Origin: Jiangella sp. DSM 45060
GTDB lineage: Bacteria > Actinomycetota > Actinomycetes > Jiangellales > Jiangellaceae
NCBI RefSeq assembly: GCF_900105175.1
Contig: NZ_LT629771.1
Coordinates: forward strand, 5,536,501-5,600,500
Length of the DNA: 64,000 bases
Direction of reading: 5' to 3'
The translations under genes and the position numbers were made by a program. Below are positions 109 to 6,723 of this stretch, in pieces. Numbering within the stretch: position 1 is the stretch's first letter; each line of letters opens with the position of its first letter. The notes under the pieces were generated by a model, which was given only the letters and a program-made list of their open reading frames with translations, made no database searches and was not told where the DNA came from.

Positions 109-181
109 GTGTCTCCCGGGTCCGTGGCCTACTGCGCGACGCCCAGGCGGCGCCTCGCTACGGCCGAGACCCGGGAGACAC
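109..181. repeat. 14-bp perfect inverted repeat around the kinase stop codon
   Basis: GTGTCTCCCGGGTC at 109-122 is the exact reverse complement of 168-181, with a 45-nt spacer that contains the stop codon of the lasso kinase gene. The spacer is long for an intrinsic terminator and no T-run follows. It may still act as a bidirectional 3' structure between the converging genes. Confidence 0.45.
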
Positions 182-1124
182 CCCCCAGCCCGACGGCGTC
201 GGCGATGGCCGGCGCGACCGCCGGCGAGAACGGCGGGCCCCACGGCACGTGCGCCACGAACACCGGGACCCGCTCGACCAGCTCGCCCGCCTGCTGGAAC
301 TGCCGGTCCAGGATCTCCGGATCGGTCCAGCCGAGCAGCCGCGGGAACCGCAGCAACGTGATCAGCGCGTCCATGGCGCCCATGCGGGTCAGCTCGATCG
401 ACGCGCGCTCCCGGTCGGGCAGCGGGAACACGATCCCGGCCAGCGGCACCCGGTCGGCCCGCGACGGCGCCACGCTCAGCGCGTCGCGGGCGTCGCTGGT
501 GAGCCGGCTGGACGGTGCGACGGCGAACTGCTCGACCAGCTCGGCGGCGGACTTGCGCAGCCGCAGCTCCGTCGCGCCCAGCCGGCAGACCGGCCGCCCG
601 TCACCGTCGTCGTCCAGGCGGAGGACGTCGTCGGTGATCAGCGTGCCGCCGGCCGCGCACATCAAGGTCGCCATCGTCGACTTGCCCATGCCGGACCGGC
701 CGACGAACGCCACCGCGCCGCCGCCGATCTGCACCGCGCTGGCGTGCAGCACGACGTCGCCGCGGATCGTCACGAGAAACGACAGCAGCGCACCGGCGGT
801 CAGGATCCCGGCGATGCCCGGGTCGGCCCCCTCGACGACGTGCACCCGCACCGAGCGGCCGTCCGGCGCGACGACGAAGTCGCAGGTCCGGTAGAACCGC
901 AGCAGCCAGCCTCCGTCGGCGACCTGGGTGAACGTGTAGTACGGCTGGTCGGTCTCCAGGTGCGCCAGCACCCGCCCGGCCGGCGCGTGCGTCGTCAGCG
1001 GCACCGGGTCGCCCCACCGGATGTCGACGTCCGGCTCCCCCTCCGCCGCGACGGCGCGTTCCTGGTGCAGCGGGACCTCCGAGGCCACCCGCAGCCCGTA
1101 CAGCAGCTGCCGCTCCGTCCTCAT
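129..1124 (-). CDS. HPr-kinase-like lasso peptide kinase
   Basis: A 331-residue protein whose second half resembles the HPr kinase C-terminal domain: a P-loop GRSGMGKST at residues 142-150 followed by the acidic stretch ITDDVLRL. HPr-kinase homologues inside lasso clusters (paeninodin and related systems) phosphorylate the C-terminal serine of the precursor. Both precursors in this cluster end in Leu-Ser, so the same role is inferred. The ATG at 1124 overlaps the stop of the B2 gene (ATGA), which indicates translational coupling. The frame stays open further upstream, but that part only shadows B2. This is the last gene of the operon inside the window. The peptide-kinase role is inferred from context; a nucleotide-binding HPr-kinase fold is well supported. 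Confidence 0.85.
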   Translation of the reverse strand: MRTERQLLYGLRVASEVPLHQERAVAAEGEPDVDIRWGDPVPLTTHAPAGRVLAHLETDQPYYTFTQVADGGWLLRFYRTCDFVVAPDGRSVRVHVVEGADPGIAGILTAGALLSFLVTIRGDVVLHASAVQIGGGAVAFVGRSGMGKSTMATLMCAAGGTLITDDVLRLDDDGDGRPVCRLGATELRLRKSAAELVEQFAVAPSSRLTSDARDALSVAPSRADRVPLAGIVFPLPDRERASIELTRMGAMDALITLLRFPRLLGWTDPEILDRQFQQAGELVERVPVFVAHVPWGPPFSPAVAPAIADAVGLGGVSRVSAVARRRLGVAQ

Positions 1125-1576
1125 CGCGTCCCGCCCAACGCCTCGAACGTCCGGTACGTGGCGGCGCCGACCGGGTCCAGGCTCACGCCGTCGATCTCCA
1201 GCCACGCGTGCGCCTGGATCCGCCCCTCGACCTTGGCGACGCCGACCCGCAGCACCGGCTTCCGGCGGCGCAGCACGTGCCCGCCGACCAGCGCGCGGCG
1301 CAGACAGGTGTCGCCGAACGGCCAGTGCCGCAGCACGCGCCAGGTGGCGCGCAGCCGCCGCCGCTCGGTCGCGGACAGCCGCGCCGTCGCACCGCCGGCC
1401 GGCATCAGCGGCGACTCCTGCTCCAACCCCAGCGGAGCGCCCAGCCAGGCGGCCAGGCGCGGCAGCCGCGCGACCCGCAGGCCGACCTCGACCGTCGCGG
1501 CGATGACGGTGGCCGCCCAGACGGACGGCCACTCGCGCGGCGGTACGGCCCGCACCAACGTCAGGGGATTCCTCAT
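1121..1576 (-). CDS. lasso peptide biosynthesis B2 protein (leader protease)
   Basis: A 151-residue transglutaminase-fold cysteine protease of the lasso B2 family, which removes the leader peptide after B1 has bound it. The catalytic triad is visible: Cys91 in DTCLRR, His123 in AHAWLE and Asp129 in IDG. The length matches stand-alone B2 proteins, whose partner B1 is encoded separately at 3399-3662. The ATG at 1576 overlaps the cyclase stop (ATGA) and its own stop overlaps the kinase start, so cyclase, B2 and kinase form one tightly coupled block. Longer versions of this frame run antisense into other genes and are not credible. Confidence 0.9.
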   Translation of the reverse strand: MRNPLTLVRAVPPREWPSVWAATVIAATVEVGLRVARLPRLAAWLGAPLGLEQESPLMPAGGATARLSATERRRLRATWRVLRHWPFGDTCLRRALVGGHVLRRRKPVLRVGVAKVEGRIQAHAWLEIDGVSLDPVGAATYRTFEALGGTR

Positions 1577-2787
1577 TCGGCACCTCGTGGAGGGCTGGGC
1601 TGCGCGGCCAGCCAGGCCTGCTGCAGCAGCGTGCCGGACAGGGTCGACGGCCGGTCGGACAGCCAACCGGCCCGCAGCGCCTCGGGATCGACGAGTTCGG
1701 CGTCCACGCCCGAGCCGTCCCAGTCGCGGGCGAACGCGCGCGTGGGCTCGCCCATGTAGGCGCGGTCGAAGCTGGCCTTGCTGGACCGGCGCAGGATCTC
1801 GTCGGGCAGCACGTCGGCGAAGAGGATGCGCATCAGCGCGGTCCGCCCGGCGAACCCCCACCGGCCGCCGAAGCGCGTGAGAGCGGCGAGGAAGCCGGTG
1901 TCGAGCAGCGGGTGCCCGACGGCGACGTCGAACTCGGCGCCCAGCGCGGCGTAGTTGGCGATGACGGCGTCGACGGCGCGGCGGTGCCGCACCCACCACA
2001 GCGACCGGTCCCACGCCAGCGGCTCGGAACCCTCGTCGGCCGCGAGCAGCCGGCGGTGCCGGCGAGCGACCGCCGGACGCAGCCACGGCTGCTGCGCGTC
2101 GCCGCTCATCTGGCGGCGCACCCGGAACGCGCGCACCGGGCCCGGCGCCAGCGCGGCGGCGGTCGCCGCCAGCAGCTCCGGACGGGGCCGGCGGCGCTTG
2201 CGCACCAGCAGCGTCACCGGGGTCACGCGGCGCGGCCCGATGACCTCGTCGCCGCCCTCACCGGTGAGGACCGACCCGCCCGCGACGGTCTCGAACAGCC
2301 GGTCCTTGACGTGGAACGGCGGCGGCCACAGCACGCCGCGGCGCAGGAGACTGGCCCGGGCGCCGTCGCCCAGCAGGTCGCTCTCGGTCCGGATCGGCAG
2401 CCGCACCCACTCGGTCAGGCCGAGGTGCTCGACGACCAGCCGCTGCCAGTCCGCCTCGTCGGCGTCGGGGACGTCCGGGTAGACCTCGGTGACGGGGACG
2501 GGGTCGGCGTGCCCTTCGCGCCGGGCCAGCGCCGTCGCGGCCGCCAGGATGGCCGACGAGTCACGCCCGCCGGAGAACGAGACGAAGCACGGCGCACGCA
2601 GCAACGCCGGGCGCAGGGCGTCGTCCAGCGCCTCGCGCGGGGTCGCGGCCGTCTCCGGAGGCGGCGGCGCGGGCAACGAGCCGTGCACCCAGGACGTGGC
2701 GATCTCGAACGAGGAAAGACGGAAATAGCGCGGCGTGGATTGTGCCGAACCGGCGTCCATTCGCGCTGCGGCGGAATGTGGATTCAC
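1573..2787 (-). CDS. asparagine-synthetase-like lasso cyclase (short form)
   Basis: An adenylating ATP-pyrophosphatase of the asparagine synthetase B family, expected to activate the ring Asp side chain and close the macrolactam. The PP-loop SGGRDSS lies about 70 residues from the N-terminus, and GEGGDE further on fits the second ATP-binding motif. The GTG at 2787 is preferred because GGGAG sits 8 nt upstream; the frame is open to a GTG at 2808. At 404 residues it is about 200 shorter than typical lasso C proteins: the N-terminal glutamine-amidotransferase-like domain is missing. The gene lies just downstream of the precursors, separated from them by a hairpin. Family assignment is firm; the cyclase role follows from the cluster. 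Confidence 0.88.
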   Translation of the reverse strand: MNPHSAAARMDAGSAQSTPRYFRLSSFEIATSWVHGSLPAPPPPETAATPREALDDALRPALLRAPCFVSFSGGRDSSAILAAATALARREGHADPVPVTEVYPDVPDADEADWQRLVVEHLGLTEWVRLPIRTESDLLGDGARASLLRRGVLWPPPFHVKDRLFETVAGGSVLTGEGGDEVIGPRRVTPVTLLVRKRRRPRPELLAATAAALAPGPVRAFRVRRQMSGDAQQPWLRPAVARRHRRLLAADEGSEPLAWDRSLWWVRHRRAVDAVIANYAALGAEFDVAVGHPLLDTGFLAALTRFGGRWGFAGRTALMRILFADVLPDEILRRSSKASFDRAYMGEPTRAFARDWDGSGVDAELVDPEALRAGWLSDRPSTLSGTLLQQAWLAAQPSPPRGAE

Positions 2788-2816
2788 GCGATGCTCTCCC
2801 GACACCACGAGGGAGA

Positions 2817-2854
2817 CACGGCGGAGTCACCGATGACCGGACGACTCCGCCGTG
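2817..2854 (-). terminator. hairpin between lasso precursor and cyclase genes
   Basis: CACGGCGGAGTC at 2817-2828 pairs perfectly with 2843-2854 across a 14-nt loop, 17 nt after the first precursor's stop codon and upstream of the cyclase start. No T-run follows. A partial terminator or mRNA-stabilising stem here would let the precursors be made in excess over the enzymes, as described for other lasso clusters. Confidence 0.6.
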
Positions 2855-2870
2855 CCCCTGGTTGACGGCG

Positions 2871-3014
2871 TCAGGAGAGGCCGCCACCGCCCGGCGGCTT
2901 GTCGTTCCCCCACTTGAACCAGAGGAACTGGTCCGACGAGCCCTGGCCGCCCTGCGCGAGCGTCAACTCACGCACGGATCCGACCTCTTCCAACACGGGT
3001 GGCTGGTATGCCAT
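2871..3014 (-). CDS. lasso peptide precursor 1
   Basis: A 47-residue peptide. Leader residues 1-19 read MAYQPPVLEEVGSVRELTL and carry the lasso signature YxxPxLxxxG...LT, which B1 recognises. The conserved Thr18 at position -2 places cleavage before Ala20, giving a 28-residue core that begins AQGGQGSSD. The Ala20 amine and Asp28 side chain would form a 9-residue ring. The tail QFLWFKWGND is rich in bulky residues that can act as plugs, followed by a Pro/Gly stretch and a C-terminal Leu-Ser. The terminal serine matches the substrate of HPr-kinase-like lasso kinases. The gene is too short for common gene callers and was found by translating the gap between the cyclase and B1 genes. Core boundaries are inferred from the Thr rule. 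Confidence 0.9.
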   Translation of the reverse strand: MAYQPPVLEEVGSVRELTLAQGGQGSSDQFLWFKWGNDKPPGGGGLS

Positions 3015-3190
3015 GGCCGTGCCCCCCTTCTCGAAAGCCCCACTGCGGAGGCGTTAACGGCAGCGCATCCACCAATGCACCGCCTTCTACCAGACCGAGA
3101 TCGTACCGGCAGAATGGCGTTGTCGGAGGTATTTGTGGCTATTTCCTCGGTCAACCGCTTTCCGCCCGGTACGTCCGGCCGACCGGAGTG

Positions 3191-3325
3191 TCAGGACAGC
3201 ACGCCACCGGGGTCGTTGTCGTAGCGGAACCACTGGACCTGGTCGGATCGGCCGCGACCGCTCGCGGCGAGCGTCAACTCACGGACCGTGCCGATCTCCT
3301 CGAGCGTCGGCGCTTCGTACGCCAT
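3191..3325 (-). CDS. lasso peptide precursor 2
   Basis: A 44-residue paralogue of the neighbouring precursor. The leader MAYEAPTLEEIGTVRELTL is nearly identical and again has Thr18 two residues before the predicted cut. The 25-residue core begins AASGRGRSD, so Ala20 to Asp28 would again close a 9-residue ring. The tail QVQWFRYDND keeps the pattern Q-x-x-W-F-(K/R)-aromatic-x-N-D seen in precursor 1, and the peptide also ends in Leu-Ser. Two dissimilar cores with a conserved leader, ring size and terminal serine suggest duplication and divergence under one shared set of enzymes. It lies 74 nt downstream of B1. Confidence 0.9.
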   Translation of the reverse strand: MAYEAPTLEEIGTVRELTLAASGRGRSDQVQWFRYDNDPGGVLS

Positions 3326-3398
3326 CAGAGCCCCCACTTTCGTTTTCTGCGGATGGATGGAACTGCCGGACCAGCGGCAGACGCCGCCGGAACGGAGA

Positions 3399-3662
3399 CT
3401 AGGAATCGGCGGTGTCGAGAAGGTTCCGCTCGCGCAGCATCGCGATGAAGGTCTCGGTGTCGGCCGTGGCTTGGTCGGCCGGAATGCCGTACTCCTCGAC
3501 GAGGCCGTCGGCGAGTTCCGCGGTGGTGCGTTCCTCGGCCAGCAGCCGCATGATGGTCGAGCCGGCGGCGTTGGTCTTCAAGTAGGTGGACGACGAGAGG
3601 TCCAGAATGACCGTCTCGCCGTCGATCTCGCGCCAGCTGACGCTATTGGTGCGCAGTTTCAT
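3399..3662 (-). CDS. lasso B1 protein, PqqD-like RiPP recognition element
   Basis: An 87-residue PqqD-family protein. The wHTH-type RiPP recognition fold is suggested by the N-terminal strands (VSWREIDGETVILDLSSSTY) and the helical second half with the ELADGLVEEYGI segment. B1 proteins bind the YxxP part of the lasso leader and bring it to the B2 protease. It is the first gene of the lasso block, 46 nt after the end of cysN on the same strand. A separate promoter is not obvious there, so read-through from the cys genes is possible. Confidence 0.88.
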   Translation of the reverse strand: MKLRTNSVSWREIDGETVILDLSSSTYLKTNAAGSTIMRLLAEERTTAELADGLVEEYGIPADQATADTETFIAMLRERNLLDTADS

Positions 3663-3708: not shown

Positions 3709-4959
3709 TCAGCTCGCCGAGGTGATCATGCCGGCGCCGACCGTGCGGTTGGTGGCTTCGTCGATGAGGATGAAGCCGCCGGTCTGCCGGTTGCGGCGGT
3801 ACTCGTCGGCGAGCAACGGCACGGTGGTGCGCAGCCGCACGCGGCCGATGTCGTTGAGACCGAGGTGCGTGGCGGTGTCGTCGCGGTGCAGCGAGTTGAC
3901 GTCGAGGCGGTACTGCAGCTCCTTCACCAGCGCCCGCGCCGACCGCGTCGTGTGCTTGATCGCCAGCTTCTGCCCGGGCGCCAGCGGCGTCTCGGCCATC
4001 CAGCAGACCATTGCGTCGATGTCCTGTGCGACCGCCGGCTGGTTGTGCGGACGGCAGATCATGTCACCGCGGGAGATGTCGATCTCGTCCTCGAGCCGGA
4101 CCGTCACCGACATCGGCGCGAACGCCTCGCCCACCGGGCCGTCGGCGGTGTCGATGCCGGCGATGCGGGTGGTGAACCCACTGGGCAGCACCATGACCTC
4201 GTCGCCGGCCTTGAGCACGCCGCCGGCGACCTGCCCCGCGTAGGCGCGGTAGTCGGTGCGCTGCAGCGACTGCGGCCGGATGACGTACTGCACCGGGAAC
4301 CGGACGTCGACGAGGTTGCGGTCGCTGGCGATGTGCACGTGCTCGAGGTGGTGCAGCAGCGACGGGCCCTCGTACCACGGCATGTTCGGCGACCGGCTGA
4401 CGATGTTGTCGCCGTGCAGCGCGGAGATCGGGACGACGGTGAGGTCGGGGACGTCGAGCTTGGTCGCGAACGAGGAGAACTCCTTCTCGATGCCCTCGAA
4501 CACCTCTTGCGACCAGTCGACGAGGTCCATCTTGTTCACCGCGAGCACGAGGTGCGGCACCCGCAGCAGCGACACCAGGAAGGCGTGCCGCCGGCTCTGC
4601 TCGACCATCCCCTTCCGCGCGTCGACCAGCACGATCGCCAGATCGGCCGTCGAGGCGCCGGTGACCATGTTCCGGGTGTACTGGATGTGCCCCGGGGTGT
4701 CGGCGATGATGAACTTGCGCCGCGGCGTGGCGAAGTAGCGGTACGCCACGTCGATGGTGATGCCCTGCTCACGCTCGGCGCGCAGGCCGTCGGTGAGCAG
4801 CGAGAGGTCGGTGTACTCGTCGCCGCGTTGCTGGCTGGCGCGTTCGACGCTCTCGAGCTGGTCGGTGAAGATCGCCTTCGAGTCGAACAGCAGCCGCCCG
4901 ATCAGCGTGCTCTTGCCGTCGTCGACGGAGCCGGCGGTGGCGAACCTGAGCAAATCCAT
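3709..4959 (-). CDS. cysN: sulfate adenylyltransferase subunit 1 (GTPase)
   Basis: A 416-residue translation-factor-like GTPase that drives ATP sulfurylase: with CysD it converts sulfate and ATP into APS. G1 is GSVDDGKST at residues 10-18, G3 is DTPGH and G4 is NKMD, followed by EF-Tu-like beta-barrel domains. There is no fused APS kinase domain, so this is the plain CysN form. The ATG lies 1 nt after the cysD stop. It is the third gene of cysQ-cysD-cysN. Confidence 0.95.
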   Translation of the reverse strand: MDLLRFATAGSVDDGKSTLIGRLLFDSKAIFTDQLESVERASQQRGDEYTDLSLLTDGLRAEREQGITIDVAYRYFATPRRKFIIADTPGHIQYTRNMVTGASTADLAIVLVDARKGMVEQSRRHAFLVSLLRVPHLVLAVNKMDLVDWSQEVFEGIEKEFSSFATKLDVPDLTVVPISALHGDNIVSRSPNMPWYEGPSLLHHLEHVHIASDRNLVDVRFPVQYVIRPQSLQRTDYRAYAGQVAGGVLKAGDEVMVLPSGFTTRIAGIDTADGPVGEAFAPMSVTVRLEDEIDISRGDMICRPHNQPAVAQDIDAMVCWMAETPLAPGQKLAIKHTTRSARALVKELQYRLDVNSLHRDDTATHLGLNDIGRVRLRTTVPLLADEYRRNRQTGGFILIDEATNRTVGAGMITSAS

Positions 4960-4960
4960 C

Positions 4961-5869
4961 TCAGAAGTAGCCTTCCTTCTTCCGGTCCTCCATCGCGGCC
5001 TCGCTGACGCGGTCGTCGCCGCGGGTGGCGCCGCGCTCGGTGAGCCGGGTGGCGGCGACCTCCTCGATCACCTTCTCGACGGTGTCGGCGTCGGAGCGCA
5101 CCGCGGCAGTCAGCGACGCGTCGCCGACGGTGCGGTAGCGGACCGTCGCGGCGAACGTCGGCTCGCCCTCGCGCGGGCGGCAGAACTCGTTGTTCGCGAA
5201 CAGCATGCCGTCGCGCTCGAACACCTCGCGCTCGTGCGCGTAGTAGATCGACGGGACGGCGATCTCCTCGCGCTGGATGTAGTGCCAGACGTCGAGCTCG
5301 GTCCAGTTCGACAGCGGGAACACCCGGATGCTCTCGCCCAGATGGATGCGGCCGTTGTACAGGTTCCACAGCTCCGGGCGCTGGTTCTTCGGGTCCCACT
5401 GGCCGAAGTCGTCGCGGAAGGAGAACACCCGCTCCTTGGCCCGCGCCTTCTCCTCGTCGCGGCGGGCGCCGCCGAACAGCGCGGTGAACCGGTGCTTCTC
5501 GACCGCCTCGAGCAGCACCGGCGTCTGGATGCGGTTGCGCGAGCCGTTCGGCTCCTCGGCCACCAGCCCGCGCTCGATGGCGTCGGGCACCGACGCGACG
5601 ACGAGGTTGACGCCCAGCTCGGCGACGCGGCGGTCGCGGAACTCCAGCACCTCGGGGAAGTTGTGCCCGGTGTCGACGTGCATGACGGGGAACGGCATCG
5701 GGGCCGGCCAGAACGCCTTCTCTGCCAGCCGGAGCATGACGATGGAGTCCTTGCCGCCGGAGAACAGCAGCACCGGGCGCTCCAGCTCGGCGGCGACCTC
5801 GCGGAAGATGTGCACCGCCTCGGCCTCGAGGAAGTCGAGCTGCGAGAGCTGGTACTCGTGGATCGTCAT
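4961..5869 (-). CDS. cysD: sulfate adenylyltransferase subunit 2
   Basis: A 302-residue PP-loop ATP pyrophosphatase, the catalytic half of ATP sulfurylase. SGGKDS sits at residues 37-42, and FPVMHVDTGHNFPEV, FGGARRDEEKARAKER and WTELDVWHYI are typical of CysD. The length equals that of the E. coli enzyme. Its ATG overlaps the cysQ stop (ATGA) and it ends in KKEGYF one base before cysN. Upstream extensions of the frame run antisense and are rejected. Confidence 0.96.
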   Translation of the reverse strand: MTIHEYQLSQLDFLEAEAVHIFREVAAELERPVLLFSGGKDSIVMLRLAEKAFWPAPMPFPVMHVDTGHNFPEVLEFRDRRVAELGVNLVVASVPDAIERGLVAEEPNGSRNRIQTPVLLEAVEKHRFTALFGGARRDEEKARAKERVFSFRDDFGQWDPKNQRPELWNLYNGRIHLGESIRVFPLSNWTELDVWHYIQREEIAVPSIYYAHEREVFERDGMLFANNEFCRPREGEPTFAATVRYRTVGDASLTAAVRSDADTVEKVIEEVAATRLTERGATRGDDRVSEAAMEDRKKEGYF

Positions 5870-6624
5870 GCGGACCTCACGGGTTCGGCGACGGCGGCCA
5901 GGAGCGCGTCGGCGAGCTCCGGGCGGGCGACGAGCAGGTCGGGGAGGTACGGGTCGGCCTCGTTGTAGCGCAGCGGCGAGCCGTCGAGGCGGCTGGCGTG
6001 CAGGCCCGCGGCCCGCGCGACGCCCACCGGCGCGGCGGAGTCCCACTCGTACTGGCCGCCGGCGTGGACGTACGCGTCGGCCTCGCCGCGCACGACGGCG
6101 GCGACCTTGAACCCGGCCGAGCCCATGGGCACCAGCTCGGCATCGAGGGCGGCCGCGGCGCGCTGGGCGGCGGCGGGCGGACGGCTGCGGCTGACGGCGA
6201 GGCGCGGCGAGGCGTGGGCCGGGCGAGGCGGGACGACGGCGGCGGGGTCGCTGGTCAGCGTGGCGCCGAGGCCGGGCAGTGCGACGGCGCCGGCGGCCAG
6301 CTCGCCGTCCTGCCAGAGCGCCACGTGCACGGCCCAGTCGTCGCGGCCGTCGCCGAACTCGCGCGTGCCGTCGAGCGGGTCGACGATCCAGACCCGCCGG
6401 GCGTCGAGCCGCTCGGCGGTGTCGGGCGCCTCCTCGCTGAGGACGGCGTCGGCGGGACGCTGCTCGCCCAGCGCGGCGACGAGGAACCGGTGCGCCGCCG
6501 CGTCCCCGGCGTCGCGCAGCGCCTGAGCGCCGGCGGACGGGTGGTGGTCGTGGCGCAGCGCGAGCAGCAGCGCGCCCGCCTCGGTGGCGAGGCGGGCGGC
6601 CAGGATCGCGTCAGACGATGCCAC
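5866..6624 (-). CDS. cysQ: 3'(2'),5'-bisphosphate nucleotidase, inositol-monophosphatase family
   Basis: A 252-residue metal-dependent phosphatase expected to hydrolyse PAP made during sulfate assimilation. Metal-site motifs are SEEAPD (about 63-68), DPLDGT (82-87) and WDSAAP near the C-terminus. The GTG at 6624 is chosen because GAGGAG lies 5 nt upstream; the frame is open to about 6687. The final TGA overlaps the cysD ATG. Family membership is certain; preference for PAP over inositol phosphates follows from the cys operon context. Confidence 0.88.
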   Translation of the reverse strand: MASSDAILAARLATEAGALLLALRHDHHPSAGAQALRDAGDAAAHRFLVAALGEQRPADAVLSEEAPDTAERLDARRVWIVDPLDGTREFGDGRDDWAVHVALWQDGELAAGAVALPGLGATLTSDPAAVVPPRPAHASPRLAVSRSRPPAAAQRAAAALDAELVPMGSAGFKVAAVVRGEADAYVHAGGQYEWDSAAPVGVARAAGLHASRLDGSPLRYNEADPYLPDLLVARPELADALLAAVAEPVRSA

Positions 6625-6723
6625 GGAACTCCTCGAAGCCGGTCTCGAACGACCCAGCCTAGGGTGATCCCGCCCGGAATCACGCACTCGCCCATTATCC
6701 GAGACGTAGCGTCCAGTATCCGG

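Follow-up and report, generated by a model that had tools for sequence, protein, structure and literature searches.

Phosphorylated lasso peptides are on record for Bacillota and Proteobacteria (PMC8498205, PMC9266682, PMC5067487, PMC10368454), with one of these papers mentioning Firmicutes and Proteobacteria (PMC8498205), and the association of kinase, glycosyltransferase, and nucleotidyltransferase genes is seemingly characteristic of Firmicutes (PMC7533575). None of the papers listed by the literature searches announced a phosphorylated lasso peptide from an actinobacterium; Zhu 2016 (JBC), Tietz 2017, and Zyubko 2019 lay outside the scope of that search, and absence is unproven. Here, we describe a lasso peptide operon in Jiangella sp. 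DSM 45060 (Jiangellaceae), located in a 64,000-nucleotide stretch (the window) of its 7.49-Mb genome, a single contig designated G000:C1. The operon occupies window positions 129-3662 on the minus strand and encodes two precursors (A1 and A2), a leader-binding protein (B1), a leader peptidase (B2), a cyclase (C), and an HPr-kinase-like protein (K). By its sequence, this kinase-bearing two-peptide system is a new actinobacterial variant of the phosphorylated lasso systems. It is probable that K phosphorylates the C-terminal serine of both peptides, with a nucleotidyltransferase (N) and an exporter (D) encoded elsewhere on the contig possibly adding a sugar and exporting the product.

Several known systems invite comparison. 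The paeninodin system of Paenibacillus dendritiformis (PadeK/ThcoK) shares the split B1/B2, C, an HprK-like kinase with a His-Lys-Asp-Asp motif, a C-terminal serine in the precursor, and its class II type (PMC9266682). It differs in gene order, which is C-A-K-B1-B2-D (PMC5067487), whereas the Jiangella operon has two precursors and the order B1-A-A-C-B2-K, its kinase falls in a separate actinobacterial clade, and N and D are detached by 16-19 kb. Pseudomycoidin, from Bacillus pseudomycoides, also combines a kinase (PsmK) with a nucleotidyltransferase gene (PsmN), to which the attachment of one or two hexoses to the phosphoserine is ascribed (PMC9266682, PMC8498205). That system comes from Bacillota and has N inside the cluster; in Jiangella, in contrast, N lies on the opposite strand and has a distribution in common with a second kinase. 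N is likened to PsmN by gene type, not by sequence; the N-like genes of Paenibacillaceae kinase-bearing loci are matched by a profile made of N together with its relatives in the loci compared. SyanK of Sphingobium yanoikuyae is likewise an HprK-like kinase that acts on a C-terminal serine (PMC9266682), but it is proteobacterial, and for a proteobacterial kinase cluster the order A-B1-B2-C-K-D has been reported (PMC5067487).

Two further systems share components but differ in the site modified. The BsfK system of Bradymonas sediminis has lasso genes with B1, B2, and K, plus N and D, yet its phosphate sits on core Ser3 of an Asp-ending precursor with Ile at leader position -2 (PMC10368454). Linear polyphosphorylated peptides (LPP; kinase LppK) are made in Bacillota with an RRE protein, an HprK-like kinase, a nucleoside triphosphate transferase, and an exporter, but without a cyclase, and again Ser3 is modified (PMC13381572). 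Judged by its genes, the Jiangella locus has the content of the phosphorylated lasso systems in an order unlike those of Bacillota and Proteobacteria.

The terminal serine and its probable kinase

The two precursor genes, A1 (2871-3014, minus strand, 47 amino acids) and A2 (3191-3325, minus strand, 44 amino acids), both score above the NCBIfam lasso_leader_L3 cut-off at about 3e-8 (3.5e-8 and 3e-8, respectively), and A1 has counterparts in the family loci. A1 translates to MAYQPPVLEEVGSVRELTL followed by the predicted core AQGGQGSSDQFLWFKWGNDKPPGGGGLS, and A2 to MAYEAPTLEEIGTVRELTL followed by AASGRGRSDQVQWFRYDNDPGGVLS, the boundary between leader and core being a prediction in each case. A YxxP...LT-L motif precedes both cores, with Thr at leader position -2, and both cores have Ala1, Asp9 as the predicted ring partner, and C-terminal Leu-Ser. 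The ring of paeninodin is likewise Ala1-Asp9. The first-pass annotation of the window had proposed both genes, their Ala1-Asp9 rings, and their identical Leu-Ser ends; the coordinates hold, the shared ending is seen in both translations, and the ring prediction survives comparison across the family.

Among the 22 genomes of the family (Jiangellaceae) that were examined, plausible precursors lie beside the kinase in 12/12 loci, two in ten of them and one in two (L026 and L027; L numbers denote the loci or DNA stretches compared and G numbers denote genomes), which gives 22 precursors with 16 distinct cores. For A2, the ratio of non-synonymous to synonymous differences per site (pN/pS) was 0.15 over 36 pairs of nine genes, so that A2 is under purifying selection. 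These two results together place the observation beyond chance. The A1 core gave a ratio of 2.1, but A1 has diverged too little in the closest group (pairwise differences: 2 synonymous, 10 non-synonymous) for this value to be informative. The 22 family cores all have the terminal Ser, Asp9, and Gly6, while Ser8 is found in 19/22 and Ser7 in 9/22; the finding pattern demanded an acidic residue anywhere in core positions 7-9, not specifically at position 9. Because the hydroxyl residues of the A1 core in the window are limited to Ser7, Ser8, and the terminal Ser, the terminal Ser is the sole hydroxyl position common to all 22 cores.

The terminal serine also tracked the kinase beyond the family. 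With a strict precursor pattern that disregards the C terminus, 11/13 precursors in other actinobacterial kinase-bearing loci ended in Ser, as did 8/8 in Bacillota kinase-bearing loci and 1/3 in the remaining non-actinobacterial ones. Among lasso loci of this class that have no kinase, 0/21 precursors (from 19/40 loci) ended in Ser, and a terminal Ser is therefore not general to lasso peptides. A Fisher test of 11/13 versus 0/20 gave a P value of 4e-7, with relatedness not corrected for; 20 rows were used because one control row (L196) was doubtful.

The makeup of these counts bears on how they are read. Of 36 non-family actinobacterial kinase loci, 12 yielded the 13 strict rows, and the other 24 yielded none that were counted. 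We dropped strict matches inside longer genes in L019 and L021 (both Phe-ending), a TTG match in L085 (Gly-ending), and L099, which repeats L098. Rows found only with a relaxed pattern were left uncounted; the plausible Ser-ending ones were in L082, L087, L091, L094, L100, and L109, and the plausible others were one in L101 (Val) and three in L122 (Ala, Val, and Pro). The 40 controls comprised five loci from the family and 35 that were mostly top-ranked matches, and are not a random sample. A Ser-ending match on the opposite strand in L164 was dropped under the same cluster-strand requirement as in the kinase-locus count, and control L182 contains a weak 114-base match to the kinase profile (5e-4).

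Four precursors beside such kinases do not fit a terminal-serine kinase: L097 (Val) and L098 (Gly) in actinobacteria, and L081 (Thr) and L090 (Leu) in proteobacterial or other loci. The kinases of these loci may act at another site, as BsfK does. L097 and L101 both have kinases of the actinobacterial clade, and their candidate precursors end in GSAV and GSTV, respectively (the latter by the relaxed pattern only), with Ser third from the end; here the target site is possibly different. L098 (genome G501) combines three matches to HprK-like kinases and two to cyclases with both Ser-ending and Gly-ending precursors, a natural pair for asking how the site is chosen.

A related alternative is that K itself targets a ring serine, Ser8 or else Ser3 or Ser7, and that the terminal Ser is conserved for some other reason. 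BsfK acts on Ser3 of an Asp-ending precursor (PMC10368454), LppK likewise targets Ser3 (PMC13381572), and Ser8 is frequent in the family cores. However, no ring serine is invariant, the L026 core contains no Ser except its last residue, and the terminal Ser is universal in the family and follows the kinase across clades. We consider a ring target quite improbable. That K is a kinase for the C-terminal serine, as the first-pass annotation had suggested, is well supported by these comparisons (22/22 Ser-ending precursors beside the kinase in the family versus 0/21 in kinase-less loci).

K (129-1124, minus strand, 331 amino acids) is an HPr-kinase-like protein. Its match to Hpr_kinase_C (7.4e-5) scored 22.8 bits against a curated cut-off of 33.3 bits, a shortfall that counts against the assignment; 18/21 aligned kinases, K included, matched this family at E<=0.01. 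Among the best 60 of 125 matches of the profile to the PDB, P-loops of ATP-binding cassette (ABC) transporters ranked top, and the HPr kinase chains 1ko7, 2qmh, 1jb1, and 3tqf were matched at 3e-4 to 2e-3 across the His-to-Asp-Asp stretch. In the 12 family kinases, His128, Lys149, Asp166, and Asp167 are invariant (numbering follows P0003, which counts one residue ahead of Met). In a wider set of 21 kinases, the His, the Lys, and Asp167 are invariant and Asp166 is conserved in at least 90%. By position, these residues correspond to the His-Lys-Asp-Asp motif required in lasso kinases (PMC9266682).

K is present in 12/22 Jiangellaceae genomes, and 10/22 are without it. At E<=1e-8, its profile matched 26/393 genomes of the class (the family's 12 included) and 17/396 of the phylum. 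In a tree of 64 kinases, 32 actinobacterial rows, including the 12 from the family, formed one clade with a Shimodaira-Hasegawa-like approximate likelihood ratio test (SH-aLRT) value of 99, and ten Paenibacillaceae rows formed a separate clade (SH-aLRT 100); K does not group with the paeninodin-type kinases of Bacillota. The tree was built by a quick method without bootstrap, and it carries flags for two long-branch joins, for nine long end branches, none of which belongs to the actinobacterial clade, and for odd letter composition in 11 rows, two of them within that clade. Because of this separate clade, K seems to represent a distinct and old lineage of actinobacteria, and not a recent or transplanted Bacillota system. 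K would work like the Bacillota paeninodin-type kinases without being a member of their clade.

Operon layout and the stem-loop after A1

In transcription order, the operon reads B1-A2-A1-C-B2-K. B1 (3399-3662, minus strand) is a PqqD-type leader-binding protein of 87 amino acids that matches PF05402 (2.9e-16) and, below the cut-off of that model, NF033530 (3.3e-13); it is present in the same 12/22 family genomes as K. C (1573-2808, minus strand) is an asparagine-synthase-like lasso cyclase (PF00733, Asn_synthase, 3.7e-16) whose start codon at 2808 is uncertain and possibly lies further downstream. B2 (1121-1576, minus strand) is a transglutaminase-like leader peptidase (NF033537, lasso_biosyn_B2, 5.7e-16). 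ATGA overlaps join C to B2 and B2 to K. B1, B2, and C, the enzymes of the lasso gene set, all lie within a single cluster, and profile matches bear out the initial description of the precursors as sitting with B1, C, B2, and an HPr-kinase-like gene, the kinase falling under its Pfam cut-off as noted above.

Directly 3' of A1 and before C lies a strong stem-loop (2813-2858, minus strand; z score of -4.8 in the window). Scores ranged from -3.1 to -6.8 in the 10/10 loci tested, the window included, and two other spacers of the window gave -0.4 and -2.1. Stems are also predicted, without a control, in both remaining family loci. The stem sequences vary among clades, and position and strength are kept. 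The structure may be an attenuator or a 3' stabilizer that balances precursor against enzymes.

The absence of K from 10/22 family genomes and the single precursors of L026 and L027 are what might be expected if the cluster were silent or decaying and yielded no product. On the other hand, all reading frames of the operon are open in the window, A2 shows the low pN/pS given above, and the stem-loop has kept its position across loci, and we regard decay as very unlikely.

Immediately upstream of B1, window positions 3709-6687 hold genes that we labeled by eye as cysN, cysD, and cysQ-like. In 8/11 other family loci, cysN and cysD are close to the cluster. Sulfation by way of these genes, considered on account of their position, was set aside as part of the system: cysN is absent near B1 in L019, L021, and the short contig L024, and no sulfotransferase was recognized among the gene calls of the window, of which the first 90 residues each were viewed and for which no family search was aimed at such an enzyme.

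Nucleotidyltransferase, exporter, and a second PqqD/HprK-like pair

Two genes outside the window appear to go with the operon. N (G000:C1:5517227-5518408, plus strand) is a nucleotidyltransferase (NTP_transf_5, PF14907, 1.3e-37) that sits just upstream of D with a one-base overlap. D (G000:C1:5518408-5520414, plus strand) is an ABC exporter whose membrane part is orthologous to that of the ABC exporter encoded after K in the Nocardioides kinase loci L076 and L080. The end of D lies 16 kb to the left of the first window position, which puts the pair 16-19 kb downstream of the operon and on the opposite strand. One orthologue of the exporter membrane part occurs in exactly the 12/22 genomes that have the kinase, and none was found at E<=1e-30 in the 10 family genomes without it. 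Chance would give the same 12/22 once in 646,646 if genomes were independent, a figure that is overstated, the genomes being related. D is on the contig of the kinase in 11/12 genomes, 1.6-18 kb away. N is present in 13/22 family genomes (all 12 with K, plus G001) and adjoins D in 9/12.

Outside the family, N and/or D were found in 14/19 loci of the kinase clade, those of Nocardioides among them. In the 40 kinase-less loci, N was found in none and D gave one weak match (L165); the control stretches were 6.7-14 kb, versus up to about 20 kb for kinase-bearing ones, a difference that favors detection of both genes in the kinase-bearing stretches. The system is thus probably wider than 129-3662: the operon is where the first-pass annotation had put it, but that extent is probably incomplete.

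A second PqqD/HprK-like pair complicates this picture. PqqD2 and HprK2 lie together at G000:C1:5491432-5492297 (about 7430-8367 of L016, minus strand), with HprK2 itself at 5491432-5492088 and a glycosyltransferase-like gene, labeled by eye, adjacent. The pair may belong to a system of the LPP kind or to one linked to polysaccharide. Divergent from it, a small Pro-rich protein (L016 8490-8990) with a signal-like start and an LPNTG-like stretch is a possible substrate.

Several observations loosen the tie between N and the lasso operon. HprK2 occurs in 13/22 family genomes, a distribution identical to that of N; G001 has N and HprK2 without K, B1, or D; and G002 has N and D beside PqqD2/HprK2 on one 6-kb contig. 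In G007 and G012, the sole N is 49-51% identical and apart from D, and in G012 it lies 7.5 kb from HprK2 and 20 kb from D. In addition, neither N nor D was found in 5/19 non-family loci of the kinase clade (L097, L100, L102, L118, and L120). Because N and HprK2 occupy the same 13/22 genomes, N may serve the HprK2 system, or both systems. The lasso peptides might then be phosphorylated only, with N, and perhaps D, belonging to the PqqD2/HprK2 locus and modifying or exporting something else. Against this, D accompanies K and B1 and is missing from G001 despite the presence of HprK2 there, and the kinase clade outside the family has N and/or D in most of its loci; we find an arrangement of this kind possible but doubtful. 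As D is absent from G001, the distribution indicates that D follows K.

A sugar-epimerase-like gene, again labeled by eye, lies near N-D at about G000:C1:5515462-5516493 (L201 5463-6494) and in two Nocardioides kinase loci (L076 2786-3793 and L080 2834-3841), and the Nocardioides genes are 67-70% identical to those in the N-D neighborhood of several Jiangellaceae. The wider region is glycan-like, with cysND, an exoY-like sugar transferase, a sugar epimerase, glycosyltransferases, and the second PqqD/HprK pair, most of them labeled by eye. It is conceivable, though we think it unlikely, that K, N, and D form a conserved actinobacterial system within such a region, which makes two different peptides in each strain with a sugar on the phosphorylated terminal Ser, and that these phosphopeptides are joined to or act on cell-surface polysaccharide, instead of serving as a free antibiotic.

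Proposed pathway and significance

Taken together, the preferred reading is of a two-peptide lasso system in which K phosphorylates the terminal serines. B1 would hold the leader; with ATP, K would phosphorylate the last Ser of each linear precursor; B2 would cleave behind Leu(-1) to release the leader, and C would join Ala1 to Asp9 around the threaded tail. N may next attach a sugar to the phosphoserine, the part played by PsmN in pseudomycoidin, and export would fall to D. The stem-loop downstream of A1 may allow an excess of precursor over enzymes. Two lasso peptides, each phosphorylated and possibly glycosylated on the terminal serine, are the likely outcome; since N and D appear to be part of the system, phosphorylation may not be the last step. 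The predicted [M+H]+ values of the cyclized cores are 2860.344 for A1 and 2720.292 for A2, rising to 2940.310 and 2800.259 with one phosphate; a further phosphate would add 79.966 and each hexose 162.05.

That N-D lie 16-19 kb from the operon suggests that searches confined to an operon would overlook some components of systems like this one. For the Jiangellaceae, the 12 natural clusters with their 16 distinct cores provide material for asking what purpose the terminal phosphate serves, whether a single kinase acts on both peptides, and whether N glycosylates the phosphoserine.

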